Shown here one piece after another: positions 1,983 to 27,145 of a stretch of DNA of 64,000 nt (position 1 is its first letter; every line of letters starts with the position of its first letter). Under the pieces are notes generated by a model. The model ran no database searches. It was given only the letters and a program-made list of their open reading frames with translations, and was not told the origin of the DNA. Made by a program: the position numbers and the translations under genes. The stretch spans positions 16,440,564-16,504,563 of the forward strand of contig CM044957.1 of the NCBI GenBank assembly GCA_024516035.1, read 5' to 3'. The DNA comes from Bactericera cockerelli. Taxonomy: Eukaryota; Arthropoda; Insecta; Hemiptera; Triozidae.

Positions 1983-2210
1983 CTTCATCTTGATAGCGTG
2001 GGACCAGGTCTCCCAGGAGAACTCATTGGCAGGAGACAGGAGCACCCAGGGCGCATGGAACCTCTCCAGCTGCAGCAGGCTCTCCCCGCAGGCAGGCTGG
2101 TTGACCAGCACGGCATGATGCCCGTACACCCTCAGGCCTTCCGAGTACTCGGTCTCGTTCAGAGCCTCCCCCACCCCGAATGCGTCGTCATGGAGTAGCC
2201 GACGGTGTAC
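1983..2210 (-). CDS. Man2b1: Mannosidase exon 15, last visible exon
   Basis: 228 nt (76 codons) coding for [20 protein letters not shown], then [20 protein letters not shown] and [13 protein letters not shown]. VHRRLLxDDxxGVxEALNE follows IELM directly in the family. It ends at a GTGAGTGA donor in phase 0, so at least one more exon is expected to the left. Confidence 0.93.
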
Positions 2211-5200
2211 CTGTAAGGAAAGACATGTTTCAGAAGAAGTTAACCCACTAATAAACGAAAATAGCCATATTTATACTATCATTACAGAGACATATTTCAG
2301 AAGAAATTAATCCACTAATAAACGAAAATAGCCATATTTATATTATCATTAATATCGATGGTGAAGACATAAATATGTAAGGGTTGGGTGGAAGAGATTG
2401 CCATATGCAATAACCCCGCTCTTTAGTTAGGACATATGTATATATTTTGTTTTTTTTTTCTTGTTTATATTATTTGTCTGTATATATGTTCTACCTACTA
2501 ATAAAGAGTTTCTAAATAAATAAATAAAAATAAAATAAAAATTATATTTATAATTACAGTTTTGGAGGACCAGTTTGAACTCATCTAGGGTCCTACACTC
2601 TAAATAAGAGTCATTGTATTCCCTCAATCAGAGACTGAGAAAAAATACAAAATCTAAATTGGTGCAGTAGTTTCACAAGGCGCCTAACTGGTAAAAATGA
2701 GTGTACGGGTTCGCATCCAGGTTTTTTCTCTCTCGAAGTTTTCTATTAAAAGTCCAAACTCTGCACGATGGTGTGAACATAAATATGTAATACCCATAGA
2801 CCAGATATAGGGAAGAGGAATGTGTGTTGTATACATGTATACTGCTTAACCATTCAGCGCGCGATTAGATCAGTGGTTAAGAACTCGCTTGCCATGCGGA
2901 AGGTTCCGGGTTCGATCCCCCTTGCGGACAAGAATTTGTAATTTGGTTACAATAATTGTTTGTAAGGGATACCTTCCGGTGCGCTCGTGTTGACCCAGCA
3001 CCTAAATGGGAAGTATTGTGTCACTCTTCGCCCATCAGAAGGGAGGCACACTACGGGATGGGCAGGCTAAAACACAGAACACAAGCGTCTACAGTAGCTC
3101 CTGTTTCACGGCTACGAAATAAAAAAGGCTGTGAAACACTCATCTTTAAAAAAAAAAAAAAAAAAAATAGAAATTAAATGGTTTTTGATGTGAAAATTTT
3201 GTATCTTTCACTAAAAGATGGATTGTGTTGGGATCACAATATTAAAATTTTGTCCACCGATCCTTGACAGTTTCAAAGCCGAGTTTACCATGAGCTCAAT
3301 CTGCCCCTCCTGCAAGCTGGTTCCCCCCTCCGCCCTGTCCACCAGCACCGTCAGGTTAGACTGGGGAGATCTCAAACTGATCCGCGACGTCACCGGGTAG
3401 TAGTTTCCCGACACCGGTTCATTCACTTCGTAGTTCCACGTGGGTCGCTGGTTCTTCACTCGCCGCAACATTTCCCGCCCGTTGGAGTCGGTGTAGAATG
3501 TGTGCTCGTTGCGAAGATCCTGGATTGTGTAGCGGCTGATGATCTCTTTGCCTAGCCCGTCTCTGTGGAGCGAGAAGATTCATAAATGTAGGAGCCTCTG
3601 TAGCAAATAATTGCAAATTTAGGGTGGAATTAATAGACAACATCAATAACTTAAGTCGTTGGTAAGTGTCCGTTTTCCCTATCTTACACAGTACGCAATC
3701 CGTGACTTAGCGCCACAGAGGTATTACAACGTCTATTAATTCTGCCCTTAGTATTTGACTTATCTGCTTATGACTAAGGGCGGAATTAATAGACGTTTTT
3801 GTAATACCTCTGTGGCGCTAAGTCACGGATTGCGTACTGTGTAAGATAGGGAAAACCGACGCTTAACAATGACTTAAGTTATTGATGTTGTCTATGAATT
3901 TCGCCCTAAATGTAGGTACCATAAGTCTCGGGTATCGGTCAATTTATAATAATAGTCACTTATTTATACTTATAATGCCAGATTAGGACTGAAAAATTGC
4001 TTTTTCCCAGCAGTTGTTTGGATCTTTCATAAATTTCTTGGGTTGGCCCTTTTTTTATATGCTATACTAAACTCGTATGTCAATGGTAAAAGAATAATAA
4101 TAAATAGGTGATTTTTAATCACTTGAATATGGTCACGGGTGTTTTATTTTTATTTATAGAATTTATACCATTAATTTCAGACGTCATGGGTGAGTAATTG
4201 ATTACAAGTAGAAATATTCTCCAGTAGAATTACTTACTCTATCGGAATTGGACCCACAATCCATTGCACATCAATGTTATCTGAGTCCTTGTATAGACGG
4301 ACAACTTGGCTGATCCAATCCACAGAGAATGTTTGATGAATCTCGCTCACTAGTTCTCCTGTGGGAGTCAAACGAAAACAAAGCCAATATTGATATTGAT
4401 ATAGTAATATTTGATATAATATATAAATATCAAATATTACTCACTGTGACCAAGTCGTTTATATATATATTTTTTAAGGTAGAAGTTCTCCGGAACCGCT
4501 TTAGCATTACTTCAGGGCACTTTACCTTTAACCATGCCATTCCGGAAACTCGGTGAGAAAATCCGTCCGGGATTTGAACCCGCAATCTCCGGGTCAGCAA
4601 CCAATGCTCTTAGCCACTGAGCCACGGAGGTTGGCTTAACTCGGCTCACACGCACATGAATCGGGTTACAATCTTGGAGAGCTCTAAATATTTTGGATTT
4701 CTAATTTTGATAATTTGTATTAAATTCATCGTTTGTGTGTACGAGTATGTAGGTAGTACCAATAAATTTAAAAAAAATCTGAACCCCTTTATAGGCCAAT
4801 AAAAAGAAAATACAATCACGTGTGTAAACAAGAATTGCTAAAGGATTAGTTTTGTATCTTGGAACGTATAAATCCCTTACATTGGGGGTTCAATCCTTGC
4901 ATGGGGATTATTATTATGATTTAACACTTTATTGGTTCTTATCATATCTCTCTTTTTCACATTGGAATTATATAGTACTTTAATTCAAAGTTCCTCTTTT
5001 GCAAATCAAGAAGAAGAAGAAAAAAAAATAAAATAAAAATAAACTGACCGTTATACACTGTAGAGTTTTTCAAAGTTACATCAATAGCAGAGCCATTGTT
5101 TCTGAAGATATAAGCGCCCGAAGATCGCCTATCATAGCCACGATTGTCGCCACTGGCAGCAATGTAGTAGGCGAAGTCCTGAGTGAAAGAGGACACTTTC

Positions 5201-6457
5201 CCTTTCTTGATGACAGACTCAATAGAGCCGCTTGGACCTAGCTTGAGACCAAAATTCTGAAACAAAGTCCAAAAGCTTAACACGTTGAACACCATGAAAC
5301 TAACCGGTGGGTTTCATGGTGTTTTACTGATGTTCCGTGAAAGTCGCCGGTGGGTTTCATTCAGATTTTTCAGAGCACACAATGATCCTCAGTCATGAAA
5401 TCCACCGGTGACCTGAAGGGAACATAATTAAAAATCCCAATTTTATCCCATGTACCTGAGAAAAAAAAATTGAAAAAAACCTCGGTGTTCAACGTGTTGA
5501 GAATTTTTATCGGGGTCAGGAGGAATAGCATCACTAAGGGTAGTATTATGCAGAGTCCTCACTGTAGGGATGCCTGGGTCATTACAAAATCGTCTCTGCA
5601 TACCAGCCTAAACATCCTGGTCATTTATTAGGAGTACCTCAACTAAGAGAAATTACAAGTTGAGAAAAATAAATGCTAAAGGCTTGACTAGATTCGAAGT
5701 TATTCTGTCCTGGTAGCTAAGTGGTGAAGGCGGCGCTCTGTGAATCCTAAGGTCCCGGGTTCGTAACCCAGCCAGAACATGACAAAATATCCTCCCGTTT
5801 GGGATTTTTACAATATAATAGTACGTCTTGAGCTTATTCAATGAAGAATAAGGTTGGCGAAAAACTAAAGTCTGTCCCGGTAGCTCAGTGGTAAAGGCGG
5901 CACTCTGTGAATCCAAAGATTCCAGAGGTCGTGGGTTCGAAACCCAGCCGGGACATGACAAGTTATCCTCCCATTTGGGATTTTTACCACACAATAATAT
6001 GTCTTGGGCTTACTGCTGGAATAATGGGACTTTAATTGTCCTAATCGGGTAGTTTGAATAAGGCGATATTAGTATTATTATTGTTGCCTATGGCAATCTC
6101 TTAAGCTCAAACCATTTATTTAATTTGTCTCATGCTCTGTTGATTCACACACTCACGTTGTTCCCGATGAAGTCCACACTGGAGGGCTGGGGCACATGGA
6201 TCACATCCAGGGGCGTCCCGGTGACAAAGTAGGACAGGAGACCCAGGGGAGGAATCTGGGAGGCTTTGAACACGAGCTCCACCCGGGCCGAGGAGACGTG
6301 CTGTCTAGCTGGGTTCTGTAGGATGGCGGGGTGAATGGGGACGGTCTGGGTGGCAATGTCGTGACCTGGTGGAAACAAAGCCAACATTGGTGAGACTTTA
6401 ATTGAAATTTGTGTTAATCACAATCGTCCGATTACAAGTCCGCCGCCTTATCGATCA

Positions 6458-6500
<43 letters not shown>

Positions 6501-9500
6501 TAGGTATTAGGTATGTGTATTTCTATATTGGGGACTTTAACACAGGAAGATTTAACCTTTTGGCTTTTGGAGGTATTTGCATCTGCTCTTTGGATCGAGG
6601 TGATACATTTGCGGCTTCCTTCGATAACCCCGCCCTTTAGTTAGGACATATATATTATGTATATATGTCCTAACTAAAGGGCGGGGCCGAGGACATATAT
6701 ATTATGTATATATGTCCTAACTAAATTTTCTTCATGTTTTACATTTTTTATATTTAAATTTTCAACCGATTTAGATTAAATTGTTCACCATTCTTCTTTT
6801 AGAATTTAATGTTTTTATGACATGTTTATAATTTGTATAAAGGTATTGTACCGTTAATAAATGTACCCGTATACCGGGCATTATTATTATTATTATTATA
6901 TATTTATTTATTTACTTTCTCTCTTATATTGTATGTATTTTAATTTGTAATTATTTGTGTTGTATATAATATGTCCAATTAATAAAGTGTAAATAAATAA
7001 ATAAATACATGACATTCTCTCACCTGAAGCGTTCTGCACCAAATATTTCAGGGCACCCAGTACCGGAACTCGCACGTTGTAGTCCACAGGGTGACTCAGG
7101 GGATTGTACAAGGTGATCACAAAGTTCTGAGCACGCTCGGAGATTTCACACTCGCTCATGTTGAGCTTGAGGCAAGAGTAGAAGACGATATTGTCGGCGT
7201 GTCCGTTGTGGTCCTTGATGAGTAACTTTCTGGTGGCGGAAATAAGAATCTCTTTAGATTATACCTGGATTCCAATCCTAAACCTCCAAGTATCATGTAA
7301 CTATGTACATTTTTGAAATAATTGTCAATACTCTTTTTTTTTAATAATAAATCATTTGTTTTATTTTTCATATTTTTTTTACAGAGGACCCATCCTAAGC
7401 CATTTTTATTTGGCTTCTAAGATTTCTAAGGTTAACTACACTTCTCTTACGATTATTGAAATGAAATAACACAACGCCCAGTTAGGTTAGGGCTTTCAAA
7501 CCCCCGTCTTGAATGACCTATGATATTAAATAAATACCAAATTATTACAATTTATCATCTAATACTTTTGGATGCCTTTAATCCAGTAATTGGTCAAACT
7601 ATCAAAACCGTTTGCTTACATTATTATTATGTGAAACTATGAAATTATTCCATGTATCTTAACTCACAAATGCCCACGTTGCGCTAGCTAAATTAGCAAA
7701 TTATATGCGAAAAATTTCATCCATTGGGTGGGATCTGAACCAACGGATTTCTACGATTCTGGATTACTATTAGACTATCGTTAACCACTTCTACCACGAA
7801 TGCATGTTTACTAAGTTTCTTCTTTTGTATTACTTATGTTGATAAACCTTCGTGTGATGCATGTGACTCACTTGATAGACTCCTCAGTGGCCCTGTGGGT
7901 GCCATTCATGGCGCTGAACACGATGCGGGCGTAGTCATACGCCACCTGCTGCTTCTCGGTGCCCGTGATGGCGTCGTGGTGTTGCATGATTCCCACCGCC
8001 TCCTTGATGGGCGATAAGTCCGCCCGGGAGTCTGTCTGACTGTCCAGCTGCTTCGCCACCTGATCAGAAAGCTCAACACTCAGTGTCTCATACAAGTTCT
8101 TTTAGTAACCTCTTCGCGCCCAATGTCCTCGTAATAGGACATTTATTTTATAGACCTAAGTACCCAAGCTAAAATTTTATACTACCAAGTAGTATAAAAT
8201 GGTGTCCTCGGGTGAGGACACCGGTCACTTTGTACTACAAAACAAAAAATGGTGTTGGGCGTGTGGAAATACTGTCAAGCCTTGATATAAGAGAAACCTC
8301 GAGATAACAGAACAAATTTTAGGTCCAATTTATCTCTCTCTAAGGGAAAATAGCCTCTTTATAAGAGAAAACTGGATATAAGGAACAAAAACTTCTGATC
8401 CTTTAGAGTTCTATTATATCCAGGAGTCAGGTTCGACAAACAGGTACACTGGTACATCACTCTCGTGATTAACACAAATACCGACCTCAGGGGCTTGATT
8501 GATAAGACGGCGGACTTTGTGATCGGAAGTTGGTGGTTCCAGTTCCAAGTTGAGCAAATTAAATATTCACTAAATGTAAAGCTAGTTTGAGTGGTTGAGA
8601 TTAACAAAAATATGATAGAATTAACAGTAACAACACACTCGAGATTAACACAAATATAAGACTTTCTCACCGACCTCAGTAGCTTGATCGATAAGGCAGC
8701 GGACTTGTAACCTGGAGGTCGGTGGTTCAAGTCCCGGTTTCAGCGTAGATTTAGTAAAGCGAGTTTGAATAGTTGTGATATCACGATAGTGATTAACACA
8801 AATATGATAACTTTTTAACTTTAAAAACTATGATAGAATTAACATTAACAACACACTCGGGATTCACACAAATATAAGACTTTCTCTCTAATCTCTCTAC
8901 TAATGTCTGTCCCGGTAGCTCAGTGGTAAAGGCGGCACTCTGTGAATCCAGAGATTCCAGAGGTCGTGGGTTCGAAACCCATCCGGGACATGACAAGTTA
9001 TCCTCCCATTTGGGTTTTTACCACATAATAATATGTCTTAGGCTTACTGCTAGAATAATGGGACTTTAATAGTCTTAATCGAGCAGTATAAATAAGGCGA
9101 TATTATTATTAATATTATACTAACCTGAGAGAACCGGAAAGCCAGCCGCTCGAAGTACTTGGTGGTGGGGCGGGAGGTGAAGTAGCCGGTCCAGCAGGCG
9201 GTGTTGTCGCTGCAGTAGGGGAAGAAGTCGTCTGTCTTCAGCGTGTAGTTGAGGTTGTGCGCGTTCACAGCTTTCAGATAGCAGGAGGGGGTGGAGTAGA
9301 AAGCGTACACGTTCTCCTGCCTCATGTTCACGTATCTGAGTGCCAAGTCGAGTTGCAAATGAGTGGAAATATTAGGAGTTGGCCAAATAGAAGAAAAAAA
9401 ATATTCAAGTAGTCATTGCTGCTGATATATTCTATAGCTATGAGAATTGAAAATTTATGGCCGGCTCAAGACTCGACTGCTGGGTCCCAACTTATGTAGA

Positions 9501-12500
9501 TTTTCGCGTCACGTGATCGATTTCCACATATCACAGAGTTCCAAATTGATCACGTGATGCTAAATCTACATGAGCTGGGACTCGACCCTGGCCTCAATGT
9601 CTCAGGTCAAGTTTCAGCCTAGCACAAGAAGTGTGCTATACCTACACAAGAGACGTTTCAGAGTACTTTTCACTACATCTTATGTCTGCTATCATTTGAC
9701 CTAAAGGTGTGCAATTTCGCATGTATCTGGACATTTTTATCTGTATGCAAAGTTAAATAAATATATCTGTTATAAATGTTCTAACGAAATAAATAAAAAT
9801 CTAGTAAAATAAAGAAGTTTAAAGGGTGCAATTTACACTAAAATAAAACAATCAACTTGGTCTAGCTTCATCTCAGAAATTATTTGCATTAATGTTTTTA
9901 GTGGGATCAAATTCTACAACACTGTAAATTCAAGAGTTACTTTTCGCAGTTTTTTCATATCCCATGAATATTTTGGGACTTAAAAGTACATACGTACACT
10001 ATACAGGGTCGAGTGCGAGTTTTACTCGTACATGTGGTAATAAAGTGAGTCTATTTCAATAGGTAAAAATACCAGTAGCCCATTCCAGAAGCACTTTCCA
10101 CTCTCCGAATCCCCTAATCTCCTTTTAGCCATCACACAAAACACTCTGATTGGTTATTGCGTTCAAATTAACCAATCAGATTACGTTGTGTGACAGTTGA
10201 AAGGGATTTATGGAGATTTGGAGAGTAGAAAATGTTTCTAGAACAGGCTCCAGATACAGCACAAGTTTCATAAAACCAATTCCTGTCTGACTTTTTCTAC
10301 ACCAGTTCCATTGAGCTGAAGCTTTTATGAGGTAGGTCACATGTGCGTGCAGATTTCTGACCTCAATCATACCGAGCTACAGTGGCCTTGTTAAAGCCAT
10401 ATATTATTTGTTTTTTTTTTTTTTATCAAAGCGGTTTGATAGAAAAGAATGCCTTTGGCGATAATACCACATTTTGTCATTTATGTAAATAAATTTTACT
10501 AAAAGAAAAGAAAAATGCCTCTACGACTTGTTAATTAGCAATTAGCGTGCAAAAAAACTGTTGGTTAACAAATAATTCCATCATGCAAATTATTATAAAC
10601 CCAACCACCAAAAGACAAGTTTTTTTCTTCCATATTCCATAATGAGTATGTACACATGATTGATTCTACTTGTGAATAAAAATAAATGAAAATTAACATG
10701 CATAGGAATGGACAGGTGTTGCGTCATTTATTATTCAGTTTTTGTCTTCGAAAGCCAATCTTCAACTTCTACCCCATTAAAAGTAACATGCCATCCCGTT
10801 TTTTCCCCCCTTTTTTTCTCGGTTTAAATCAAGTTGAACGTGTTGAGTACCATTAAATAAAAATAATCCACAAATAAAAAAATCTCAACATTTGGTGACA
10901 TTTACTTACTTTATCAACATATCGAGATATTTGAAATTTAAATAAGCATACTGATAGTTGAAATCATCGCCCATTGTTATTATTATATTGTTAGTTGTAT
11001 AGGATTCTTCTTGCTTTTTAACATAAGCTATGAACTGATCAATCTGAAAGTAATGTTAGATTAAAATAGTCAATTCCACGAGGTCCATTCTACTCAAGAG
11101 AAGTGTTAACAAAAAAGTTAGACCCGTTATGACCCGCATATATCCTGCCTGTCATTCCTTTCGATGCCATATTTAAAAAAATGCCTTTCTTTTGGGCCTA
11201 AAAGAATCCGCTTTTTTTAAATTTACCTTAAAATTAACCCAGCGAATCCCTTTTTAAGGGAGGGGGGGGGGCGAACATTCCAGTCAATGAATTATTTCAA
11301 GAATAACTTCTTTTGCATCTGTAGCGTTTCCATTCACCCATTCAGGCGACCACGTAGAATTCATGCCGATCAGTCATAAAAAAAACCCCGACGGTATAAA
11401 TAAGAGCCCAGTAAAATAAACCTTCTAATTTTGACCCCGACTGAAAATATTCAACCATTTCAGGGTGTCCTACTTACTTTATCAGCATGTCTAAGTTTTG
11501 GAAATTATAAGCAGCGTTTTGATAGTAAAAGTCCTCGCCCATTGTAAGAATAATGTTATTGCTTGTGTATTGTAGACCCTGCTCTTTTACGTAGCTAATA
11601 AATGTGTCGATCTGGAAAGCCGAAATAACAAATAGAACTATTGGCTGTGTCGTACATTGATTTTGGTGTATTCACAGTGGGCTGGGAGTGTAGAATAATA
11701 ATAAATAAATGAAATATACAGTGGAGTGGATGTTGGTTGTTATTGCTGCTGTGCTGTAAATGTTCATAACTAGTTCACATGTCTAAAACACTCCCTGAAA
11801 ATTTCAGCTCGATTGGACAAAAATTGCAACTCTTATCGCGATAAGTCATTTTCGTCCAAATCGTAGCCTAGCTCGATGTTACTTAACATTATGTGGTCCA
11901 AACCATACAGAAAATTCCTAGTATCAATGGAGAGTTTCAGCTCGATTGGACCAAAATTACAACTTTTATCGGGTTACATACAAACATACATAGAAACGGA
12001 CAAGTGCCACTCGAGTTAAAGGCAGTGGTGATTCACTTCGTTCGCAATTGAACGCTATCAAAGTGATGTGAAGAATTGGAATTCTTATTTTCGATTTTTA
12101 AAGTATTTTACTTGATTTAAGAGGAAAGGAATTCTTTGTCTTACAAAGAAATCCTTTCAGAAGACACGTAGGTACTTAAACTGAATACGGAAATATTGTT
12201 GTAAAACAGTCAAGAAGTTATTGAAATTTAGTGTTTTTCCTAATCAGTAAAATGTCAATACTGATGAAACGCATCACAAGGAAAAATACCTATCTTTAAG
12301 TAGAATTTCCTCTAAGAAACACCGAACATCTCTACAGATTTAGGCTAATCATTCGTTATGAAGTGGTCAGCTGGTCAGTGCATTTGCGAAAAAGGACTGT
12401 TACGTTTTTAGTTGAAAGCAAGTTGTTTATTATTATTATTCAGTCGTTTTCAAGTCATTTTTTCTCGATATATCTATATCTAGAGTTTAGTCCAATTCAC

Positions 12501-15500
12501 AAAATAACGTCGAAAAACGGTCGAATTCAGGCTCTGTTGAAACATTAAATTAATAAATAAAGTAATTTTCTTATTCAGAACCCAAAAAAGATTCCACCCT
12601 CATCTGGGATGAACAGAAGATTAAAAATAACAAAAGATTAAAAATAATAGAAGATTTAAAATGAGCTGAGCTGCAAGCTGCAATTGGTTAATTTCGTTGG
12701 ACAGTGATGAGTTTTTCCAGAAACCATGGGTTAGAATATTTCTGAGATAACTTTGACACAGAAAGTTAAAAACAAGAGTATGAGTTCAATCAAGCTTGGT
12801 TTCTACATAACGACTTATCCGACGTTTTTTTCAAAATAATTTGCATTCGATGAATCAGTAGTATTCATCTACATAGTTTTTTTTTTAACTTAAATTGTGC
12901 TCCGGAACCGCTTTCGGATTTTTTCAGGGCACTTTTGCACCTAAGGCATTCCGACCACGAAGAAACTCGATCAGAATTTTCCGGTCCGGACAGGATTCGA
13001 ACCCTCCGGGTCAGTAACCAATGCTCGACCACTAAGCCACGGAGGTCCGCTCGTCTGCATAGTTACATTGGTAGGTGGGTAAGGCGGTCAGCAAAATATC
13101 GACTGAGATTTCAATTTTATGAAACGAGGCCACTAAAATAAAATAGGTGCTTCATGTTAGTGGGCTCCTTGCAAACTAGAACCATCATGGGGCTAAGGAT
13201 ATTTGATAAGTTCGTGATTATCCAAAAACTGAATTCGGTATTACTCGTTAGAGAAAACGTGGGTTAAATCGCTATGTGAACACAAGGCTCTATGGATTAT
13301 TATAAGTTTATCAGGTCAAACGCACACAAGTCATTCCATTAATACAAAGGGAAAAATACCTTATAAGTTTATCAAGACTTTTGAAATAGTAGGCCGCGTC
13401 TTGGTACGTGAAATCGCCTCCCATGGTTATGATCACGTTATTCGACGTGTAATATTCGGCCTGGCCTTTCACGTAGCCTAAAAATTCTGTGATCTAAAAA
13501 GGTAAGTAGGTATAATTTAATAAGATAGGTATAATGAAAGGATGAAATATATTTTTTTTATACCAGTGGATTAGATGTTTTGAACTTTAAACTTGATAAT
13601 GTGTTTTTCTAAAAATATTTTTGAATTTAGTTGATACAGAATTAATAAAATTAACAGTAGGTCAATGTAATTTAATCACATTTCTAATGATGCGTTATCA
13701 CTATATTTTGTTCATTAATAATAGTATTAGTGTTATCATTAATGAACACAAATTATGAATATTTCTCATCATAGCTCATCATGTCATGAACTTTCACAAC
13801 CTTTTGATTACGTTATCAGAAATTTCATGAAAATAGTTCATAATTTTACTATGATAAAGGAAAAAAGATAGGTAGTACCTATGTAAACAGTAACTGACAT
13901 GGGGAACTAGGTTTGTTGTACATATTTTATCTGTAGTGGCTTTGCCAAAGACATCTTCATGGAGGCGTACTGGTGACGGCATTGAGCCATATCTTATTTT
14001 GGCCTCCAAATAAGCAACCAGGGCGTCATTCTAAAAAGCACTGTCACTCTCAAAATCTCGCCTTCAACTATCAACTTGCGTTTAAATAACGCATTCTCTG
14101 AATGCATTATTTAACGAGTTTTGACGATTGAAAGGGAGATTTGGGGGCTTTTGAGAGTGAAAGTGCTTTTAGGAACGATGTCCAAGTAAAAGGAAAATGA
14201 GATGCGATGTTTCAATATCTACAGAGCACTTCAGGTGAAGGCGTGAGTCTTATCCATGTCGAATCAAGTCTGATACCTAGTTTTCTACGATGACAGATGC
14301 TTACCTTGTCTTTGATATTATACTCTGGACTTTCCTCATCGTCCACCAGGGGCGCTTCACCGCAGAGAATATCAAAACAGAAGCCGTTAGGTGCGCTGTA
14401 AGTGTTGTAGAGCGCATGCGTGAAAATGTTTCCTTTCGTTCCTATAAAGACAGTGGGTAGAAGAAATAATTTTAAAGAACATGGATATAACTAAGGGTTA
14501 ATTTCAAAAGACTGTCCAAATGATCGGTAGGAAAGTCAACTTTTTTAATGTGACTTTTTAAAGGACATACTATTTCATTCTTAGTGCATTCAAATTGGCC
14601 TATGAAAAAATAGTTTATAAGGTACTTAGAATGAACATGAACAAGTTCACGTTTTTTTTCAGGACAAAATAGGTAGGTACTTAGTTTATACCATGCTAAA
14701 CTATATTAGGTTAGGTTAGAATAGTTCACATCAAGTTCTTTGAAGCCAATTTAATATACCTAATTACATATCATAAAAAAAAAACGGTTATGTACTTTGA
14801 GGCCACCATTATTATTTACATTTTTCAACAAAGATTTACAGTTAGGTCATTTGATTAATGAAAAAAGTCTCAGAACTCTAGGAAAAACACTCATCATATT
14901 TTCCTGACAAAGTACGTTCAATAAGATTTTCATGTATTATTATTAGGTAGTTTTGGAAAGTAACATAATTATTATTATTTATTAGTTAATTTCAGTGATT
15001 CATGAATTTCCCAGCGCACTGACTCACCTATACTGTCGCTCCCTTGCCAAATCATCTCCATCTGTCTGGTGTCCAGACGATGTCGCTTATCCTGGTAGTC
15101 CTGTCGTCCGAACATGAAACCATCGTACCCCATCTGACTGAAGAGGGAGGCCTGTTCTCGCGAATGACCGAAAGGGTCAATCTGCCACCCAACTCGGGGG
15201 CGACCACAATGACCGAAAGTGTCGTTGAGCTTTCTGTTGATCAAAAATGGGTTACATGTTACATGATTATTGCAAGACTTAGAAAATTTAACTATCATTG
15301 ATTTACTTTCACTGTGAATGTATCGGTGGTAACTGTAAAAAATAGGGAGATTAGGAGATTATGAGAGTGGAAAGTGTTTCTGCCACATAGTACTGGTCTC
15401 CGAAAAGTTCGAGATATCCAAAAATGGTTGAAGTAAACCCCCATTATTTTTGGATTTTTAAAATAAAAAGAAACCCTGGGGATAAGAAACACTACTAAAA

Positions 15501-18500: not shown

Positions 18501-21500
18501 AAGATCCTACTGGTCATCTCACTGCCTAGCCTTAGCCGTCCTGGTTCGGAATCTAATGATCCATATCGCGAGAGCTTCCACTAAACAATGGAGGAGATAA
18601 AATAAAAAAAGTTAAAAAGTTAAAGTAAGAATTATTTGTGCTTAAGTAAGAGCCCAATTACAATTTTTGTGGGTAGCACAGCATTAATAAGAACCTCCTT
18701 TACCAATTCAGACGCGGTGACTACTTGAGAAAATAATAATACTAGACCAGCATGTAGGTAATGGTGGTAAACACACAATCTCAGCAAAAAATCTACTATT
18801 ATGAAGGGTATTTTTGTCAAAAAGAGAGTTTAAACTACCTGTAAGGATCAAAGTAACATCCCTGTGATACAAGGCGCTAAGGACAGAGAACCTTAAAGTA
18901 AAGACCAGTCGATACGATAAGCACAAAATTGTACTAAGGGCCTAATCCATTGAGAAAAAAAACATATAAAACCGCCATGTCGCCGCGGGTGAATAAGAAC
19001 TGTAAGTAATATACCATAGTAATTTATAATGGTTCAGTAGGTATGCCAAAATTTCACTTCAATTAACATTTATAATCCTGTATTACTCACAAAATTCTCA
19101 AGAAGATCTCGCTATGTCACAAGAAATTCATACAGTAATTATTGTGCATGAGATTGAATGTTCTCTTAATGTCTACAATTCTTTGTCGTTGTTCTGATTG
19201 TACTGGACTAGTTTTCTGCTGGAATTGCAAGAATTATTAGGAATGTTAAGATTGTTTTGTCTGAAAGAAAAAGTGTTCAGCATTCATTCTGCAAGAAGAA
19301 ACAAAATGATCAAGATTTCTCTCTTTTTTCCCTTCTTGTATATTTGTTTAATCTTTTTGTTTTTCTTTATATTTCATTGTGTTCTACTGTATATATTTTT
19401 TGTTCTACCTAATAAAGATTAAAAAAAAAAAAAAATGTTCAGTCACATACCTGAGGCCCCAGGAGAACTGGTCAATGGTGGATGTGTAGTGCACGACCGC
19501 CTCGTCATTCATGGACCAGGCCCCTCCGATGAACTCCAGGCGTCCCTGGTTCACCAAATCCTTCACCTGCTTCTGCACCAGCTGGCTCTGTTTGGTCCAC
19601 CACTTCCAGAAGAACGCCGTCTCGACATAGATGAACCTAGAGGAGGGAGGGATTCGTAAACCTTCATTAAGGGCCGACTTATGAAACATCAGGATTACTA
19701 AATCTTGGTGGACACTATCCCTTAATTTTCACCTTGACAACAACTGCAGAGGTCATAATTATGCCGGGCTTTGTATCTGTGTATTAACTATTTGGCGTAA
19801 CAGGGCTGTAGCCAGCCTTCGTGACGGAAAATTTGGTTTTAAAATACCTATCGGTCAGCTGATAAAATCTAAGGGTCGGCTTGGATTTAATAATCCTTTT
19901 TCATAATACAGCCTTAAGGATAAATAAAATATTTCTCCCTCAATCAGATGAAATTATACTACCCAGTCTTCCCTCTTCAAATTCGGGATAATCAATTTAA
20001 GTCCCCTAAAGCAACAGTCATGAATAGCTTTAATCTGATGGTCTGATGAGAATTGGATGATCTACTAAACTATAAGAACAGATTGGAATGACTTTCACTC
20101 GATACTGAGAGTACCGGACTGTAGGTACTAAAGGAATTAGAAGAAATAATATCAATCAAGAAACTCGAATATGCGAAGCTAAAAGTTGTCTTTCATTATC
20201 TGGCAATCCAGTTCTTCCAATAAAGGAATTGCAAAGATAGACACCAGAAGTCCTACTTGGCTCAGACGACAACACGCCTGTCTTTAAACCTGAAGGTCGC
20301 GGGTTTGACTCATCCTGTCTAGGGAATTTATTAACTTCTATATCCAGGTAATTATACTTACTTTTTCTTAGGATCTGCAATCAGCTCTCGAACCACTGAA
20401 TCCAAAATGAACTGAACTCCTGCTAGCTGAATATTACTTTTGGCTGAAAAAGACAAAATGCAGACGGTATAGATGGATTTTCTTTAAAATTAAAAACTCT
20501 GACCTATTACCATATAATAAAACTCATAAAGAAACACTGCTATGATGTTGCTCAGTACTAGCGTAGACCTATTGTAGGATTGAATTTTATAGATTCACCA
20601 AGAAAAACGGTGAGTATTAAATTATGTCCGAGAAAGGAATTTACTTGTAATTTGATTTTCACAAGGTACAGTAATCGTTGAGACATTTTGTTATTTATTT
20701 TTTTATCACTCAAAGGCCACTACACTCAAGCTGCCGAAAGGATTACTTACTTCCATAGTAGTACTGATCCACAGTTTTCAGCCAGCCAACGTCATCGTGA
20801 GTGTGAGGAATGATGTGCACATTCAGGACGTTATCTTTGGGCACAGGACATGACTGCAAAAGACGAAACCAATAATAAGCATTATTAATATTTCCAAATC
20901 GATATTAAAATAAAGATACTTATCTTTACAGCCTTTATCATACTCGTCCTATTTTCTAGCCCTGAAACAACAGCTACTTTAGATTCTACTAGTCTGTGTT
21001 GTGGCCATCCCGTAGTGTACCTCCTTCTGATGGGCGAGAAGTGACAGTTACTTCATTTTTAGGTGCTGGTTTAACGCGAGCATTGAAAGGTATGAGGTGT
21101 CCTTTAAAAATATCTGTAATCTATTTATGATTACAAATTTTTATCGGTCCTGGTATTGAAACCTTCCTTATGGTTAACGAGGATCTTACAACTGAGCTAA
21201 TTGTGCGCTTAATAATTTACTTTTATAATTTGATGGTTACCACACCACCGATGGAACATGCCTCCCAACACATTTCACTCAACTCGGGTCTAAGCGCAGG
21301 CCCAACGCCACTAGTGATATGAATATCATACAAGAAATAATAATCCACAGTGACGGTAATCTACCTTGATAAAATTTGACATGTCCGGAACTCAGAACAT
21401 GAAATTTCATGTTACAAGCTACCTTAACAACTGAGCTTTTCAAAGTCGGCTTATTTTCAAAATGTGTTACAAGGACGAGTAACATTACAAGGTCTGCTTT

Positions 21501-24500: not shown

Positions 24501-27145
24501 TGTTGAATAACACCCAAGGGTTTCAGATTAGTCAGCGTCGATGGCACATTAAATACATATGTCCTCTTGAGATCACTCAAGTTGAGCAACGTCAAGCGAA
24601 GTCAAGACTTGGTGAGTGATCACTCAAATTCGAATTCTCGTGATACTGGCTGCTCCCGGTCCAATCTAAGACGGGTGAGGTAAATATGGGTACATAAAAT
24701 AATCATTCGCTAAAACAGCTACTTAAATTTACCTCACCCAGGAGTGAGGGCCAGAATATCCAGCATCACGAGGATTCGAATTTGAATGGTAACTCATCCA
24801 AATTTTAATCTCGTAGGATGTTGCTTAACTTGAATGAAAAAAAACAAGAACTAAAATTGCTTTTATTTTTTTATCTTTTTTATCGTTTTTTTTTTTAAAT
24901 TATTAAATCTTTCTATTTTGTAAATTACCTACTTAATGAGTGAGTAATTGAATATGCTTGGTTGTGCCTGAAAACTATGTAGGTAACGGTCTCTAGCAAC
25001 TACTAAGGTCATGTCAGGACGGGGCTTTTACCCTACTTACTACCTACATTAACCTCACCCTGCCTGGGTTGAGCCAGGAATAGCTAGCATCACGAGAGTT
25101 CTACGTTTCTAACCTCGCTGGACATTGCTTAACTTCAGTGACATAACGAGAACTTGGTAAATACACATTCAACGTGCCATCGCGCATCGACACGACCCCG
25201 ACAATGTTATTAAACATCTTCATATTCATCAAAATGATCCATTTACGTCACCGGATCTACATAATATATATGTATTTCTTCTATTATTAATATTGTTTTA
25301 GAATTTTAAACCCATCAGACCCTTATACAAGAGGCTATTTCAAGAACTTGGTGTCAAGAGTCATAATTATAATAGGTATTATTTTGTACATAAATACTAG
25401 ACTTCAGTTGTCCACCGGTTTTTCTATTAAATTTTAGATCAAATTAAATGTGTAGGTACTTAATGCAATCAATGTTTTTCAACACATACATTGATTAACT
25501 TACATACAACATACAGGGTGGGGCAAAAGTCTGGAAACCCCTAAATAACTTTCGAATGGCTTCTTCGGTAAAATTAAAATTTTGTACGGTAAACCGGACT
25601 AATAAGACCTTCTTTTAGAGTGGGGTCGATTTTTGTTACCGGCCCCCATGTCGGGGCCAGGGGGGCCAACTTCATTTTTTTAAATACGAACCCCCACCTT
25701 GCGATACATTTTTGAAAAGGTCTTTAAATAAGAAATACATTGGTGTAAATTTTATTTTTTTAATATTAACTGTTTGCAAATGGCGTCCAACTTTGTGTAT
25801 GCAGTAAAGTCTGGAAACCCCTGAATATCTTTCGAAAAGGCTTTCTCAGTAAATTTAAAATTGTGTACGGTAATCCTTGGTAATTAGACCTTATTTTAGA
25901 ATGGGACCGATTTTTTTTACCGGCCCCCATGTCGGGGCCAGGGAGGCCAACTTCATTTTTTTAAATACGAAACCCCACCTTGCGATACATTTTTGGAAAA
26001 GTCTAATTACCCCGACTTATTGTGCACAATTTTAAATTTACTGAGAAAGCCCTTTCAAAAGATATTCAGGGGTTTCCAGACTTTACTGCACACACAAAGT
26101 TGGACGTCATTTGCAAACAGTTAATATTAAAAAAAATAAAATTTGCACCATTGTATTTCTTATTTAAAGACCTTTCCAAAAATGTATTGCAAGGTGGGGG
26201 TTCGTATTTAAAAAAATGAAGTTGGCCCCCCTGGCCCCGACATGGGGGTCGGTAACAAAAATCGACCCCACTCTAAAAGAAGGTCTTATTAGCCCGGTTT
26301 ACCTTACAAAATTTCAATTTTACCGAAGAAGCCATTCGAAAGTTATTCAGGGGTTTCCAGACTTTTGCCCCACCCTGTATACATTTCCAACACATTCGAT
26401 GGAGGTATTCCAACACATGTATACCTCCATCGAATACAAAGTACAAAAACATAAACATTAGTTCATTTAAAAACGGCAACGGATAGCGAAAAGTTAGTAA
26501 GAATCAGTATAAAAATAACCACTTCTTATCTACTTACTATCCGGTACACTATACACTCCTATAGCTGGAAGAAGTTCTATTAATCATCAATAAAAAATTT
26601 AAAGATCATACACGAATGTTGTAAAGACAAATTAAAACCAATTTTATTCCCGGGTGTACTTATCTACTTACATACCGGGTATACTTTTGTATTACTTCTG
26701 GGTAAACTTATCTATTTTATATACACATTTATCCTAATTTTCATGGGGTACAGTTTTGATGAGTTCAAATGAAAAGAAAATGATAGGCTGTTTAGGGTGA
26801 AAATCGCACAATGTAATATTGTAGGAAGTGATGGATTTATTTTATTGATAATGTAAGTTAATCTTAGGGCAGCATTAAATTAATAGACGTTTTTATTATA
26901 CCTCTGTGGACTTCAGTCTAGATTTTGCGTATTTGTTTAAATGGGGAATCTAATGCTAAAGTCCAAACTTGTGATCTTGATTTTGCCTATTAATTTCGCC
27001 CTTCAGCCCAAAGAACTCTTCAGATAGCACTCACCTCATATCCACACACAGGGGCTTCAGTCGCTTTGAAGTTGTCCGCAAACGGATGCGATAAAACTAC
27101 GACGCAGCCCGCTAACAGAAGTCCGACAAGACCTAGAACCTTCAT
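1983..27145 (-). CDS. Man2b1: Lysosomal alpha-mannosidase (GH38), 15 exon positions, 3' end beyond the window
   Basis: Hydrolyses terminal alpha-linked mannose from N-glycans during glycoprotein turnover in the lysosome. Joining exons 1-15 with one copy of exon 7 gives an unbroken frame of 2604 nt (868 residues). The human enzyme is about 1000 residues, so roughly 130 C-terminal residues lie left of position 1. Visible hallmarks: signal peptide (about residues 1-19); HTHDDVGW with metal ligands near H56 and D58; QIDPFGHS with the expected nucleophile and Zn ligand D180; TMGxDF near residue 302; QHHDAITGT near 416-424 with the last Zn ligand; FYTDSNGRE and GNYYPV of the beta-rich C-terminal part. 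All joins fit phase and GT-AG. Some insects have several tandem mannosidase genes, so orthology to one paralog is not settled. Introns are full of SINEs and MITEs. Coordinates span introns. Confidence 0.93.
2430..2545 (+). repeat. A-rich 3' end of a retroposon
   Basis: T-rich sequence followed by a TTCTACCTACTAATAAAG-like end and an AAAT-rich tail. A similar end (TTCTACCTAATAAAG plus poly(A)) occurs at 19403-19435, which suggests the 3' terminus of one LINE family. Confidence 0.45.
2855..3172 (+). repeat. tRNA-derived SINE, family S3, with poly(A) tail
   Basis: The tRNA-like head has an A-box-like TAGATCAGTGGTTAAGA and a B-box-like GGTTCGATCCC. A unique body follows, then a 19-nt A run at 3150-3168. 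Reverse-strand relatives occur at about 20955-21205 and 51345-51620. It lies between exons 14 and 15. Confidence 0.85.
3289..3562 (-). CDS. Man2b1: Mannosidase exon 14
   Basis: 274 nt containing [40 protein letters not shown] and [20 protein letters not shown], ending [19 protein letters not shown] and LTVLxDRxxGGxSL are strongly conserved. Acceptor CCACAG, donor GTAAACTC. A foldback MITE begins about 55 bp from the acceptor. Confidence 0.94.
3617..3910. mobile_element. Foldback MITE in mannosidase intron 13
   Basis: The first ~130 bp (ATTTAGGG onward) and the last ~130 bp (ending CCCTAAAT) are near-perfect inverted repeats. Both include the block around CTTACACAGTACGCAATCCG. A second, more decayed member lies at about 26870-27005 just downstream of exon 1. 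No coding capacity. Confidence 0.8.
4238..4358 (-). CDS. Man2b1: Mannosidase exon 13
   Basis: 121 nt coding for [20 protein letters not shown], then [20 protein letters not shown]. It matches family blocks VxEVxQxFxxWxSQVVRLY and EWxVGPIP. Acceptor CCACAG, donor GTAAGTAA. Phases fit exons 12 and 14. Confidence 0.92.
4480..4636 (-). repeat. tRNA-derived SINE, family S4
   Basis: On the minus strand the head reads TCCGTGGCTTAGTGGCTAAG and later GGGTTCAAATCCCGGACGG, like tRNA A and B boxes. The body includes GGAATGGCATGGTTAAAGG. A second copy lies at 12897-13051, also on the minus strand. Confidence 0.8.
5049..5256 (-). CDS. Man2b1: Mannosidase exon 12
   Basis: 208 nt beginning [20 protein letters not shown], then [20 protein letters not shown] and AYIFRNNG, the last being the family motif SGAYIFRP. 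Acceptor TTTCAG; the donor GTCAGTTT is less canonical than its neighbours. A 220-bp MITE (5279-5498) starts about 22 bp upstream of the acceptor. Confidence 0.92.
5279..5498. mobile_element. MITE with 15-bp terminal inverted repeats
   Basis: Begins AACACGTTGAACACC (5279-5293) and ends with its exact reverse complement (5484-5498). The inside contains further inverted blocks around CCGGTGGGTTTCA. It is inserted just upstream of the exon 12 acceptor. A terminal fragment resembling it lies near 10835. Confidence 0.75.
5705..5870 (+). repeat. tRNA-derived SINE, family S1, diverged copy
   Basis: Head CTGGTAGCTAAGTGGTGAAG, B-box-like GGGTTCGTAACCC, then a body shared with the copy that follows immediately at 5874. 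Confidence 0.75.
5874..6085 (+). repeat. tRNA-derived SINE, family S1, well-preserved copy
   Basis: Starts GTCCCGGTAGCTCAGTGGTA, and a CCGGGAC at the end of the tRNA-like head can pair with the first seven bases as an acceptor stem. GGGTTCGAAACCC acts as a T-arm/B-box. The body ends in an ATT-rich tail. Other copies: 8909-9118 (+) and 29829-30056 (-). No isotype can be assigned; it is a SINE, not a functional tRNA gene. Confidence 0.85.
6157..6365 (-). CDS. Man2b1: Mannosidase exon 11
   Basis: 209 nt coding for a segment containing [20 protein letters not shown] and [10 protein letters not shown]. IPPLGLxxY is conserved in lysosomal mannosidases. Acceptor CACCAG, donor GTGAGTGT; it ends in phase 0. 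Confidence 0.92.
6459..6500. repeat. (CA)n microsatellite
   Basis: About 40 bp of uninterrupted CA dinucleotides in mannosidase intron 10. Confidence 0.95.
6628..6686. repeat. 59-bp near-perfect palindrome
   Basis: Arms of about 27 bp (CCCCGCCCTTTAGTTAGGAC onward) flank a five-base centre. Another arm copy follows at 6691-6724, and a related single arm is near 2414-2435. This is probably the terminal hairpin of a mobile element. Confidence 0.75.
6735..7012 (+). repeat. LINE/retroposon 3' ends with ATT and AAAT tails
   Basis: Two AT-rich 3'-end-like segments, one ending in an (ATT)n tail near 6880-6897 and one ending AATAAATAAATAAATAC at about 6990-7007. No coding sequence. The second abuts the donor of mannosidase exon 10. 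Confidence 0.45.
7024..7229 (-). CDS. Man2b1: Mannosidase exon 10
   Basis: 206 nt coding for [20 protein letters not shown], then [20 protein letters not shown] and LVQNAS. This is the start of the beta-sandwich region (family pattern CxxLNxSxC, YNPL). Acceptor CACCAG, donor GTGAGAGA. A LINE-like A-rich 3' end (about 6900-7010) lies immediately beyond the donor. Confidence 0.92.
7720..7800 (-). repeat. tRNA-like head of SINE family S6
   Basis: The minus strand reads GGTAGAAGTGGTTAACGATA, then GTTGGTTCAGATCCCACCCA. It matches the head of the longer copy at 63528-63742. Confidence 0.65.
7872..8059 (-). CDS. Man2b1: Mannosidase exon 9: Zn-ligand motif QHHDAITGT
   Basis: 188 nt beginning [20 protein letters not shown], then [20 protein letters not shown], ending EESIK. 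The His in HHDAxTGT is the fourth Zn ligand of GH38 enzymes and is present here (near residue 418). Acceptor GATCAG, donor GTGAGTCA. Confidence 0.95.
8272..8438. mobile_element. Decayed pogo/Tigger-like MITE
   Basis: Contains CTTGATATAAGAGAAACCTC near the left and TATATCCAGGAGTCAGGTTC near the right, resembling the GGTTTGACTG-ended element at 41852-41994. The ends are too diverged to define a TA duplication. Confidence 0.45.
8481..8618 (+). repeat. tRNA-derived SINE, family S2, diverged copy
   Basis: ACCGACCTCAGGGGCTTGAT, then a B-box-like GGTGGTTCCAGTTCC and the family body. A better copy follows at 8670. Confidence 0.7.
8670..8812 (+). repeat. tRNA-derived SINE, family S2
   Basis: ACCGACCTCAGTAGCTTGAT head, GGTGGTTCAAGTCCC B-box, and a body ending AACACAAATATGATAAC. 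Other copies: 23454-23605 (+), 28370-28470 (-), 28548-28687 (-), 31266-31414 (+), 32657-32780 (-). This is the most frequent SINE in the window. Confidence 0.82.
8909..9118 (+). repeat. tRNA-derived SINE, family S1
   Basis: Near-identical to the copy at 5874-6085, with GTCCCGG/CCGGGAC pairing retained. It ends in an ATT-rich tail about 7 bp from the donor of mannosidase exon 8. Confidence 0.85.
9125..9335 (-). CDS. Man2b1: Mannosidase exon 8
   Basis: 211 nt coding for [20 protein letters not shown], a [11 protein letters not shown] segment and [20 protein letters not shown]. These match the family blocks YSTP.CY, DFFPYAD and [15 protein letters not shown]. Acceptor ACTCAG, donor GTTAGTAT. 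It ends in phase 0. The start may be off by one base; it was set by reading frame. Confidence 0.93.
9460..9592. mobile_element. Foldback MITE, ~130 bp
   Basis: GGCCGGCTCAAGACTCGACT at one end and a roughly complementary GGGACTCGACCCTGGCC at the other. Internal inverted CGTCACGTGATCGAT and ATTGATCACGTGATG arms. Confidence 0.65.
10080..10253. mobile_element. Foldback MITE, family M4
   Basis: Inverted arms: CACTTTCCACTCTCC left, GGAGAGTAGAAAATG right. The inner AACCAATCAGATT pairs with CTGATTGGTTATT. A related element is at 14022-14188 and a single arm near 15340-15400, all in the same gene. Confidence 0.7.
10910..11043 (-). CDS. Man2b1: Mannosidase exon 7, variant C (nearest to exon 8)
   Basis: 134 nt; begins [20 protein letters not shown], carries TMGDDF and ends FKYLDMLI. 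Acceptor TTTCAG, donor GTAAGTAAA. The base composition is more AT-rich than that of other exons of the gene, but the frame is intact and the conserved residues are kept, so it does not look like a dead copy. Confidence 0.88.
11478..11611 (-). CDS. Man2b1: Mannosidase exon 7, variant B
   Basis: 134 nt; begins [20 protein letters not shown], carries TMGEDF and ends FQNLDMLI. Acceptor TTTCCAG, donor GTAAGTAG. It is open, with no frameshift, and 28 of 44 aligned residues match variant C. Divergence is concentrated at exposed-looking positions and in the residue just before the catalytic-motif Asp. Confidence 0.9.
11780..12010. repeat. Dispersed repeat with a twice-repeated TTTCAGCTCGATTGGAC block
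   Basis: The block occurs at about 11803-11820 and again at about 11935-11952 within a ~200-bp segment. Such blocks are common in insect intron repeats. No coding sequence. Confidence 0.5.
12010..13359. other. Intron between exon 7 variants A and B
   Basis: Holds a reverse S4 SINE (12897-13051). Otherwise AT-rich unique-looking sequence with no supported gene. Confidence 0.6.
12897..13051 (-). repeat. tRNA-derived SINE, family S4
   Basis: The minus strand carries the same head and body as 4480-4636 (CCTCCGTGGCTTAGTGG and the GGAATGCC region). It lies between exon 7 variants A and B. Confidence 0.75.
13360..13493 (-). CDS. Man2b1: Mannosidase exon 7, variant A (first in transcription order)
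   Basis: 134 nt; begins [20 protein letters not shown] and ends FKSLDKLI. It contains TMGGDF, whose Asp corresponds to the residue proposed as acid/base catalyst in the mammalian lysosomal enzyme. The acceptor follows TTTTTAG; the donor is GTATTTTT, weaker than those of variants B and C. Same length and phases as B and C; 27 of 44 aligned residues match B by eye. Confidence 0.9.
14022..14188. mobile_element. Foldback MITE, family M4
   Basis: AAAAAGCACTGTCACTCTCA left and TGAGAGTGAAAGTGCTTTTA right, with inner arms around AACTTGCGTTTAAATAACGC. Related to 10080-10253. Confidence 0.75.
14305..14441 (-). CDS. Man2b1: Mannosidase exon 6
   Basis: 137 nt coding for [20 protein letters not shown], then [20 protein letters not shown] and KDK. 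It matches the family segment YNxYxPPxGFCFD. It ends in phase 0, and each of the three exon 7 variants starts in phase 0, so any of them can be spliced to it. Confidence 0.93.
15028..15233 (-). CDS. Man2b1: Mannosidase exon 5: nucleophile exon
   Basis: 206 nt coding for [31 protein letters not shown] and [16 protein letters not shown], ending in [10 protein letters not shown]180 of WQIDPFGHS is the expected catalytic nucleophile and Zn ligand, as in the mammalian enzyme. Acceptor AACAG, donor GTGAGTCA. Separated from exon 4 by 4.2 kb of repeat-rich intron. Confidence 0.95.
15524..15752. mobile_element. hAT-type MITE, 229 bp, with 8-bp target duplication
   Basis: Terminal inverted repeats CAGCGGTCGGCAACCT and AGGTTGCCGACCGCTG (16/16). 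They are flanked by identical CTCTAAAC at 15516-15523 and 15753-15760. An 8-bp duplication with CAGNGGTCGGCAACC ends is the classic hAT signature. It lies in mannosidase intron 4. Non-coding. Confidence 0.93.
15761..17621. other. Mannosidase intron 4, no gene seen; 115-bp direct duplication
   Basis: AT-rich intron sequence. A tandem duplication with a period of about 115 bp spans 17355-17580; the two units (each starting ACTCAAAGATAATATTTATG) differ by few bases. No supported coding segment. Confidence 0.65.
17622..17975 (+). repeat. tRNA-derived SINE, family S5, full-length
   Basis: The head CCTCCGTGGCGTAACGGTTG and B-box-like GAGTTCGATTTCC are followed by a ~280-bp body ending CACGGACACGGAATTATTAT. 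The 3' ~110 bp recurs at 38496-38605. The body block around CAGGCTGGGTGAGGTTAATG resembles segments near 24660, 25040, 41465 and 61350, a dispersed family. Confidence 0.78.
17976..19190. other. Mannosidase intron 4, continued
   Basis: No coding exon seen. 18230-18360 resembles the dispersed repeat that contains GTTGCTTAACTTCAGTG (also near 25130, 31690 and 61435). Confidence 0.5.
19191..19436 (+). repeat. Retroposon 3' end with poly(A), abutting the exon 4 donor
   Basis: T-rich sequence, then TTCTACCTAATAAAGATT and an A run at about 19421-19435. The end lies about 15 bp from the mannosidase exon 4 boundary. On the gene's strand this places a long T tract right after the donor. Confidence 0.6.
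19451..19636 (-). CDS. Man2b1: Mannosidase exon 4: catalytic-domain strand [13 protein letters not shown]
   Basis: 186 nt coding for [13 protein letters not shown] through [20 protein letters not shown] to FSWGLR. Both blocks are diagnostic of GH38 lysosomal mannosidases. The acceptor is CTCTAG; the donor GTATGTGA lies only about 15 nt from a retroposed poly(A) tail on the other strand. Confidence 0.94.
19637..20361. other. Mannosidase intron 3
   Basis: No coding sequence seen. A weak tRNA-like segment on the minus strand near 20240-20330 may be another decayed SINE. Confidence 0.45.
20362..20443 (-). CDS. Man2b1: Mannosidase exon 3
   Basis: 82 nt coding for [20 protein letters not shown] and PKKK, matching the family segment AGVQYILDS before the FIYVE strand. 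The acceptor is TTTTTCAG, the donor GTAAGTAT. Phases fit both neighbours. Confidence 0.9.
20751..20853 (-). CDS. Man2b1: Mannosidase exon 2: first metal-binding motif
   Basis: Codes for residues 38-71: SCPVPKDNV, then [15 protein letters not shown], then [15 protein letters not shown] is the GH38 signature; its second His and last Asp are Zn ligands in solved structures. The acceptor follows a pyrimidine tract ending in GCAG; the donor is GTAAGTAA. The length of 103 nt leaves one base for the next exon. About 6.2 kb of intron separates it from exon 1. Confidence 0.92.
20955..21205 (-). repeat. tRNA-derived SINE, family S3, 3' portion and decayed head
   Basis: Minus-strand match to 2855-3172, including the block around CTTCTCGCCCATCAGAAGGA. 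The tRNA-like head near 21160-21205 is diverged. Confidence 0.65.
21206..23453. other. Mannosidase intron 1, left part
   Basis: AT-rich intron with no supported exon. Short open frames on both strands have no recognisable content. Confidence 0.5.
23454..23605 (+). repeat. tRNA-derived SINE, family S2
   Basis: CTCAGTTGCTCAATCGATAA head, GGTGGTTCGAGTCC B-box, and a body ending TTGACACAAATATAATAC. Confidence 0.75.
24000..24500. repeat. Tandemly duplicated ~300-bp dispersed repeat
   Basis: The block from AATTCAAAGAAGCGGCGCTT to ACTTTCCTTATTATAGGAT (about 24004-24210) recurs from about 24303 to 24490 at roughly 90% identity. Both contain CAGACAGACGCACGGACCAA. Confidence 0.7.
24535..24860. repeat. 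Dispersed repeat in inverted arrangement
   Basis: GTCGATGGCACATTAAATAC, then TCGAATTCTCGTGATACTGG, followed by inverted relatives ending near 24860. The same family occurs near 25040-25210, 41345-41560 and 61330-61500. Confidence 0.55.
25514..26377. mobile_element. 864-bp Tc1/mariner-type foldback element with four related arms
   Basis: TA-flanked at both ends (25512-25513 and 26378-26379). The termini are CAGGGTGGGGCAAAAGTCTG and its reverse complement. The whole element is a long inverted repeat. Each arm itself has two similar direct segments (AGTCTGGAAACCCCT at about 25530 and 25808), so four related blocks lie head to tail and then inverted. No transposase is encoded. Confidence 0.88.
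26378..27034. other. Mannosidase intron 1, right end
   Basis: Holds a short GGAGGTATTC/GAATACCTCC-type inverted repeat near 26398-26436 and a diverged relative of the 3617-3910 MITE at about 26870-27005. No exon seen. Confidence 0.5.
27035..27145 (-). CDS. Man2b1: Mannosidase exon 1: start codon and signal peptide
   Basis: The ATG at 27143-27145 begins [20 protein letters not shown], a short basic start, a hydrophobic core and a small-residue exit: a secretory signal. The exon ends at the codon for E37 (CGYE), with donor GTGAGT. The frame is open for over 100 codons upstream, but that extension is not mannosidase-like, so the Met before the signal peptide is preferred. Confidence 0.88.

Follow-up and report, generated by a model that had tools for sequence, protein, structure and literature searches.

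Clusters of mutually exclusive exons in insects, such as those of Dscam1 and Mhc, contain homologous exons in tandem that agree in length and phase and have matching splice sites, and one of them is used at a time. In the human genes PKM and KHK, the swap of one mutually exclusive exon for another alters the properties of a metabolic enzyme. Here we describe an arrangement of the same architecture in the psyllid Bactericera cockerelli. It lies in 64,000 nucleotides of contig CM044957.1 (assembly GCA_024516035.1, positions 16,440,564 to 16,504,563 of the forward strand), referred to below as the window. A lysosomal alpha-mannosidase gene on the minus strand has three copies of its exon 7 in tandem. 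In our best reading, they are an old mutually exclusive set to which a third variant was added in the psyllid gene. With a probability of roughly 0.8, this one gene may yield up to three enzymes, the choice of exon 7 tuning the substrate pocket.

Splicing of this type is well known, and isoform names show that the annotation in databases has already met the alternation of exon 7. A search by titles and the first parts of abstracts, with subscription papers mostly outside it, found no alpha-mannosidase described as having mutually exclusive exons. Kassiopeia (PMC3923563) is a catalogue covering mutually exclusive exons; neither LManII nor CG6206 occurs in the text of the paper, as distinct from its database. 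A three-copy exon 7 was seen here only in the present window.

The exon 7 cluster and the active site

In the order of transcription the variants are 7A (13360..13493), 7B (11478..11611) and 7C (10910..11043), all on the minus strand and each of 134 nt. They lie between exon 6 (14305..14441) and exon 8 (9125..9335), their splicing partners upstream and downstream. All three have the same phases, AG acceptors, GT donors and no stop codon; the coordinates in the preliminary description were exact. Exon 6 joined to any single variant and then to exon 8 gives one open frame through the whole gene model. Two variants shift the frame, as had been pointed out, and it can be added that the joins AB, AC, BC and ABC all meet a stop 5–8 codons into the second variant. 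The triple join (402 nt) restores the frame length, yet it stops 8 codons into B. When all three variants are skipped, a stop follows about 111 codons downstream. Because every product of multiple inclusion or of skipping carries a stop, full enzyme is expected only from single inclusion. The cluster thus combines tandem exons of equal length, homology between the exons, and compatible splice sites and frame, as mutually exclusive clusters do.

The homology is far beyond chance (tblastn between variants, E from 4e-14 to 2e-15). Variants A and B have 27 of 44 residues in common, as do A and C, while B and C have 29, so that the earlier figure of 27–28 holds for the first two pairs and is too low for the last. 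As had been described, the motif TMGxDF is retained throughout, and the residue before the catalytic Asp is Gly in A, Glu in B and Asp in C. Together with the second variable residue, the variants read Gly318/Thr321 (A), Glu318/Tyr321 (B) and Asp318/Asn321 (C). In an alignment to bovine lysosomal mannosidase (1O7D) the first of these positions is a Ser adjoining the acid/base Asp, and the second is a Gln two positions after that Asp.

A 2026 review (PMC13204073) gives these positions a meaning. Ser318 is described there as the lysosomal counterpart of Asp340 of Golgi mannosidase II, part of a pocket that carries charge in the Golgi class and is neutral in the lysosomal class. Gln321, with Leu272, takes the place of Arg343, the key residue of the holding site. 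Asp340 and Arg343 are treated as selectivity positions, and the ionisation of Asp340 as dependent on the protonation of the acid/base. Since positions 318 and 321 are their equivalents, exon 7 would swap residues that separate the Golgi and lysosomal classes, and the proposed active-site differences between the variants are borne out.

The mechanism that we propose is as follows. Exactly one of the three copies would be included in each mRNA, giving up to three enzymes from one gene, and nonsense-mediated decay would clear transcripts that include no copy or several. According to PMC6071210, decay of multi-inclusion products is a possible contributor for exons with lengths not divisible by three. 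Because exon 7 encodes the acid/base, Asp319, together with the nearby residues 318 and 321, the swap would retune the substrate pocket: A would be neutral, C acidic and Golgi-like at 318, and B acidic and bulkier. Linkage preference would be expected to change, and so would the pH optimum, by way of the pKa of the acid/base. The isoforms might also differ in substrate preference more broadly.

Concerning how the choice is enforced, the two introns that separate the variants measure 1748 and 434 nt, and all four flanking and internal introns are of the GT-AG type. With these sizes and this type, neither crowding of splice sites nor a mismatch between U2 and U12 introns is likely to be responsible. 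The introns were also scanned for duplexes (six intron pairs, four block shuffles each). Three of the six pairs fell inside the range of their shuffles, one was weaker than all of its shuffles, and one, at -44.4, was stronger than its shuffles by 0.3 kcal/mol. The sixth pair, which joins the intron upstream of 7A to that downstream of 7C, reaches -59.1 kcal/mol, far beyond the -34.5 to -42.2 of its four shuffles. This pairing comes from two palindromic elements, one before 7A (14025..14195, self-complementary at 69% over 163 positions) and one after 7C (10080..10275, 73% over 168 positions). It is conceivable that they influence looping or skipping.

The palindromes around the cluster resemble miniature inverted-repeat transposable elements. 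The idea that their pairing reflects two copies of one repeat was dropped, as blastn shows no match between them; a further match elsewhere in the window, a partial one at 15346-15382, exists only for the element that follows 7C.

Exon 7 among relatives

For comparison we took the 120 best of 5164 protein matches, in which 122 instances of exon 7 were scored. Residue 318 is Gly in 64 of them, Glu in 27, Asp in 25, Asn in five and Ser in one. It is coupled to residue 321, which is Thr in 60 of the 64 Gly rows and in 4 of the 58 others, so that 110 of the 122 instances are either Gly318 with Thr321 or Asp/Glu318 with Asn, His or Gln at 321. Residue 328 follows the same division: Tyr occupies it in 49 of the 64 rows with Gly and in 2 of the 52 with Asp or Glu. 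Many of the insect proteins listed carry names of isoform X1, X2 or X3.

Two Thrips palmi proteins named as isoforms X2 and X3 are identical at all 990 residues compared outside exon 7, and 18 of the 44 within it differ. Between Cataglyphis niger and C. hispanica, 15 of 44 residues differ within exon 7 and 17 of 958 outside it. The same pattern appears in 84 pairs, not independent of each other, that are at least 80% identical outside exon 7 and were drawn from 118 proteins with one motif. The 40 pairs of unlike type (Gly versus not Gly) differ on average by 41% within exon 7 and 16% outside, and the 44 pairs of like type by 12% and 15%. In the gene models of Acromyrmex charruanus (P0019) and Cotesia congregata (P0066) both types stand in tandem with the Gly type first, which is also their order in the psyllid gene. 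Psyllid relatives are of different type: Diaphorina citri has an A-type exon, with 38 of 44 residues identical to 7A (P0003), and Cacopsylla melanoneura a C-like one (P0002).

That exactly one exon 7 enters each mature mRNA, as the preliminary description had proposed, is indirectly supported by the two Thrips isoforms, by the difference in type among psyllids and by the early stops after multiple inclusion. An exon 7 of two types is widespread among the listed insect proteins. The preliminary description knew of no such exon arrangement; as far as the two types are concerned it is less exceptional than this suggested, and what is special is the third copy.

A further search was read for 30 informatively named rows chosen among the 120 best of 373 matches, ten of them without a readable motif (seven of these non-insect). 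Six of the ten non-insects that could be read have Ser with Gln or Asn (a rotifer, two gastropods, two nematodes and a monkey); among the others, Met/Tyr comes from a mite, Gly/Gln from a mite and from Loa loa, and Cys/Thr from a fluke.

Trees of the 44 exon 7 residues were made by a quick method, with no bootstrap, once with columns 318 and 321 and once with them masked. Variant A falls in a set of six Gly rows, which in the masked tree are from Diaphorina and aphids (SH-aLRT 97 masked, 98 unmasked). Since the alignment is ungapped, the aphid Gly rows are shifted by one residue over the first half of the exon; they also have a long branch, and it is the second half that joins them to A. Variants B and C form one group with the Cacopsylla exon, with SH-aLRT 95 in both trees. 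These groupings suggest that the split between A and B/C is older than the psyllids, and B and C probably arose by a later duplication of an Asp/Glu-type exon in the psyllid lineage. One could go further and suppose that a conserved exon choice, already present in early insects, toggles the residue next to the acid/base and that of the holding site between neutral Gly/Thr and acidic, Golgi-like combinations (Asp/Glu with Asn, His or Gln), changing linkage preference and pH optimum, and that psyllids added Glu/Tyr; we put this forward tentatively, as somewhat less probable than its negation.

Alternatives and points of difficulty

The three exons could be remnants of tandem gene copies or an artefact of assembly, and lysosomal mannosidase genes of Drosophila are in fact duplicated and partly clustered (PMC4006722). 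We give this hardly any credence. Neither a duplicate of any of the other 14 exons nor a fourth exon 7 was found in the window (the next best tblastn match to any variant has E 0.49). Misassembled alleles are disfavoured because the variants are only 60–64% identical in DNA, that is 36–40% apart, and tandem pairs of exon 7 occur in the gene models of other insects as well. Both versions were set aside on the absence of other duplicated exons and on the distance between the variants.

A more serious alternative, which we nevertheless hold to be improbable, is that function is confined to A and C, or to A, with B, or both B and C, being unused and decaying duplicates. No counterpart of B turned up in two protein searches with B, which is weak evidence, as one of them gave a single candidate and isoforms are hidden when sequences are clustered at 90% identity; nor is there one among the proteins listed. 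The private changes of B are spread 7, 3 and 6 over the three codon positions, with no excess at the third, and an open frame alone persists in 10–35% of randomly drifting copies (24–60 substitutions). Against decay, B retains all 11 positions that are at least 95% conserved in 118 insect exon 7 peptides, where A and C retain ten each, and it has the exact length, intact AG and GT, and an acceptor and a donor that both score high by a crude measure built from the gene's other exons. When neutral drift was simulated and retention of the frame, the splice dinucleotides and ten conserved residues was required, P was 0.011–0.015 at 16 substitutions and 0.001–0.002 at 24. As to C, the Cacopsylla protein contains an exon like it. 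Taken alone, the private changes of each variant reveal no constraint that is significant (p 0.37 for A, 0.44 for B, 0.08 for C), and dS between variants is saturated by the NG86 method, so that no dN/dS ratio is obtainable. Pairwise differences between variants are most frequent at third codon positions.

The swap may also be real and its alternation between Gly and Asp/Glu have arisen repeatedly, by exon duplication and parallel change, rather than once. This we regard as rather unlikely, though more probable than decay of B. On the masked tree the type has to change 18 times, which makes recurrent duplication or gene conversion possible, and it puts thrips exons of both types together. A profile of the types without 318 and 321 classified 78 of 112 instances correctly when each was left out in turn, a test biased against close relatives; it placed A, B and C correctly and misplaced the exons of Diaphorina (-0.22 bits) and Cacopsylla (+4.81). 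Beyond a few positions, then, no clean line can be drawn between the two types when insects are taken together. On the other hand, a single clade of Gly exons is not rejected (log-likelihood lower by 19, AU p 0.34), and Tyr328 tracks type. The types are mostly in separate groups within ants, bees and vespid wasps and within Drosophila and related flies, with the Glu exons of braconids elsewhere. Forty-four columns are insufficient to decide between one origin and many.

The want of a partner for B, the absence of an excess of its changes at third positions, the 18 changes of type and the poor classification all weigh against an old mutually exclusive set with a third psyllid member, and three further points do so as well. 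The donor of 7A is weak (GTATTT, score 4.1) in comparison with those of 7B and 7C (10.7). Pairing of the selector type, with a docking site that pairs with a selector before each variant, was not found in the scan of six intron pairs with four shuffles each, and the two palindromes that pair strongly do not stand before each variant. Finally, 7C is identical to the Cacopsylla exon at 31 of 44 residues and to the A-type exon of Diaphorina at 30; because plain identity barely discriminates here, C is assigned by what it has at 318, 321 and 328 and by its place in the tree.

The host gene and known systems

Starting in exon 1 at 27145, the gene extends along the minus strand as far as position 1983 in exon 15, with 15 exon positions within the window. 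Exon 1 (27035..27145) has the start codon and a hydrophobic N-terminus; exon 2 (20751..20853) carries HTHDD with zinc ligands. Exons 3 (20362..20443) and 4 (19451..19636) precede exon 5 (15028..15233), which has the nucleophile in WQIDPFGHS. Beyond the cluster, QHHDA with a zinc ligand is in exon 9 (7872..8059), followed by exons 10 (7024..7229), 11 (6157..6365), 12 (5049..5256), 13 (4238..4358), 14 (3289..3562) and 15 (1983..2210), the last one found in the window. As the predicted protein is open at its end, one or more last exons must lie beyond those found. The protein, scanned as the B isoform, has the domains Glyco_hydro_38N, Alpha-mann_mid and Glyco_hydro_38C. It also has the motifs for zinc ligands, nucleophile and acid/base, the acid/base being that of TMGxDF; we take these residues to have the same roles in LAMAN. 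For dGMII the roles are as assigned in PMC13204073. The four top matches among the 120 best are psyllid proteins; P0002 of Cacopsylla melanoneura and P0003 of Diaphorina citri have 78% identity across the full query. By its sequence the locus is a single MAN2B1-type lysosomal alpha-mannosidase gene of family GH38, with a predicted acid alpha-mannosidase activity in the lysosome.

Several other features were seen. In the Diaphorina models P0003 and P0004 most of exon 8 is missing, YLKAV being joined directly to AKQLD, either by an annotation error or because the exon is skipped. Three tRNA-like matches lie in the mannosidase introns on the plus strand (8909-8990, 5707-5779 and 5874-5955); ARAGORN reports the first only, with no anticodon identity, and they are probably short repeats derived from tRNA. 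Beyond exon 15 and on the opposite strand there is a retrotransposon, with a reverse transcriptase (RVT_1) open frame at 3-1364, plus strand. A tandem array at 39943-40355 (unit of 75 bp, 5.5 copies, 98% matches) overlaps a minus-strand open frame. At about 52330-57190 on the plus strand is a hemocyanin/hexamerin-like gene matching Hemocyanin_N, _M and _C; its frames hold long asparagine-rich stretches of low complexity, and AAC-type repeats continue to about 59470.

If the proposed use of exon 7 is correct, splicing would change the residues around the catalytic acid, and a single lysosomal gene could in this way act on several glycan substrates or in several compartments. Given the two exon versions in many insect database proteins, insects may tune their lysosomal mannosidase by splicing. 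Cloned insect enzymes may then represent one form of the active site only; a possible example is the Drosophila LManII used in tests of inhibitor selectivity.

The psyllid enzyme has its domains, zinc ligands, nucleophile and acid/base motif in common with MAN2B1/LAMAN (1O7D) and the jack bean enzyme (6B9O). At positions 318 and 321 the bovine enzyme has Ser/Gln and that of jack bean Asp/Gln, neither of which is among the three psyllid combinations. To our knowledge, the bovine and jack bean enzymes have a single form only. In dGMII, Asp340 beside the acid/base Asp341 is matched by the Asp of 7C and approached by the Glu of 7B. Its Arg343 is unmatched in all variants, and the relatives of the psyllid protein are lysosomal enzymes. 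We know of no case in which the exons of PKM or KHK replace the residue beside a hydrolase's catalytic acid. The cluster resembles those of Dscam1 and Mhc in its layout and differs from them in that the exon concerned bears the catalytic acid/base of a lysosomal glycosidase.

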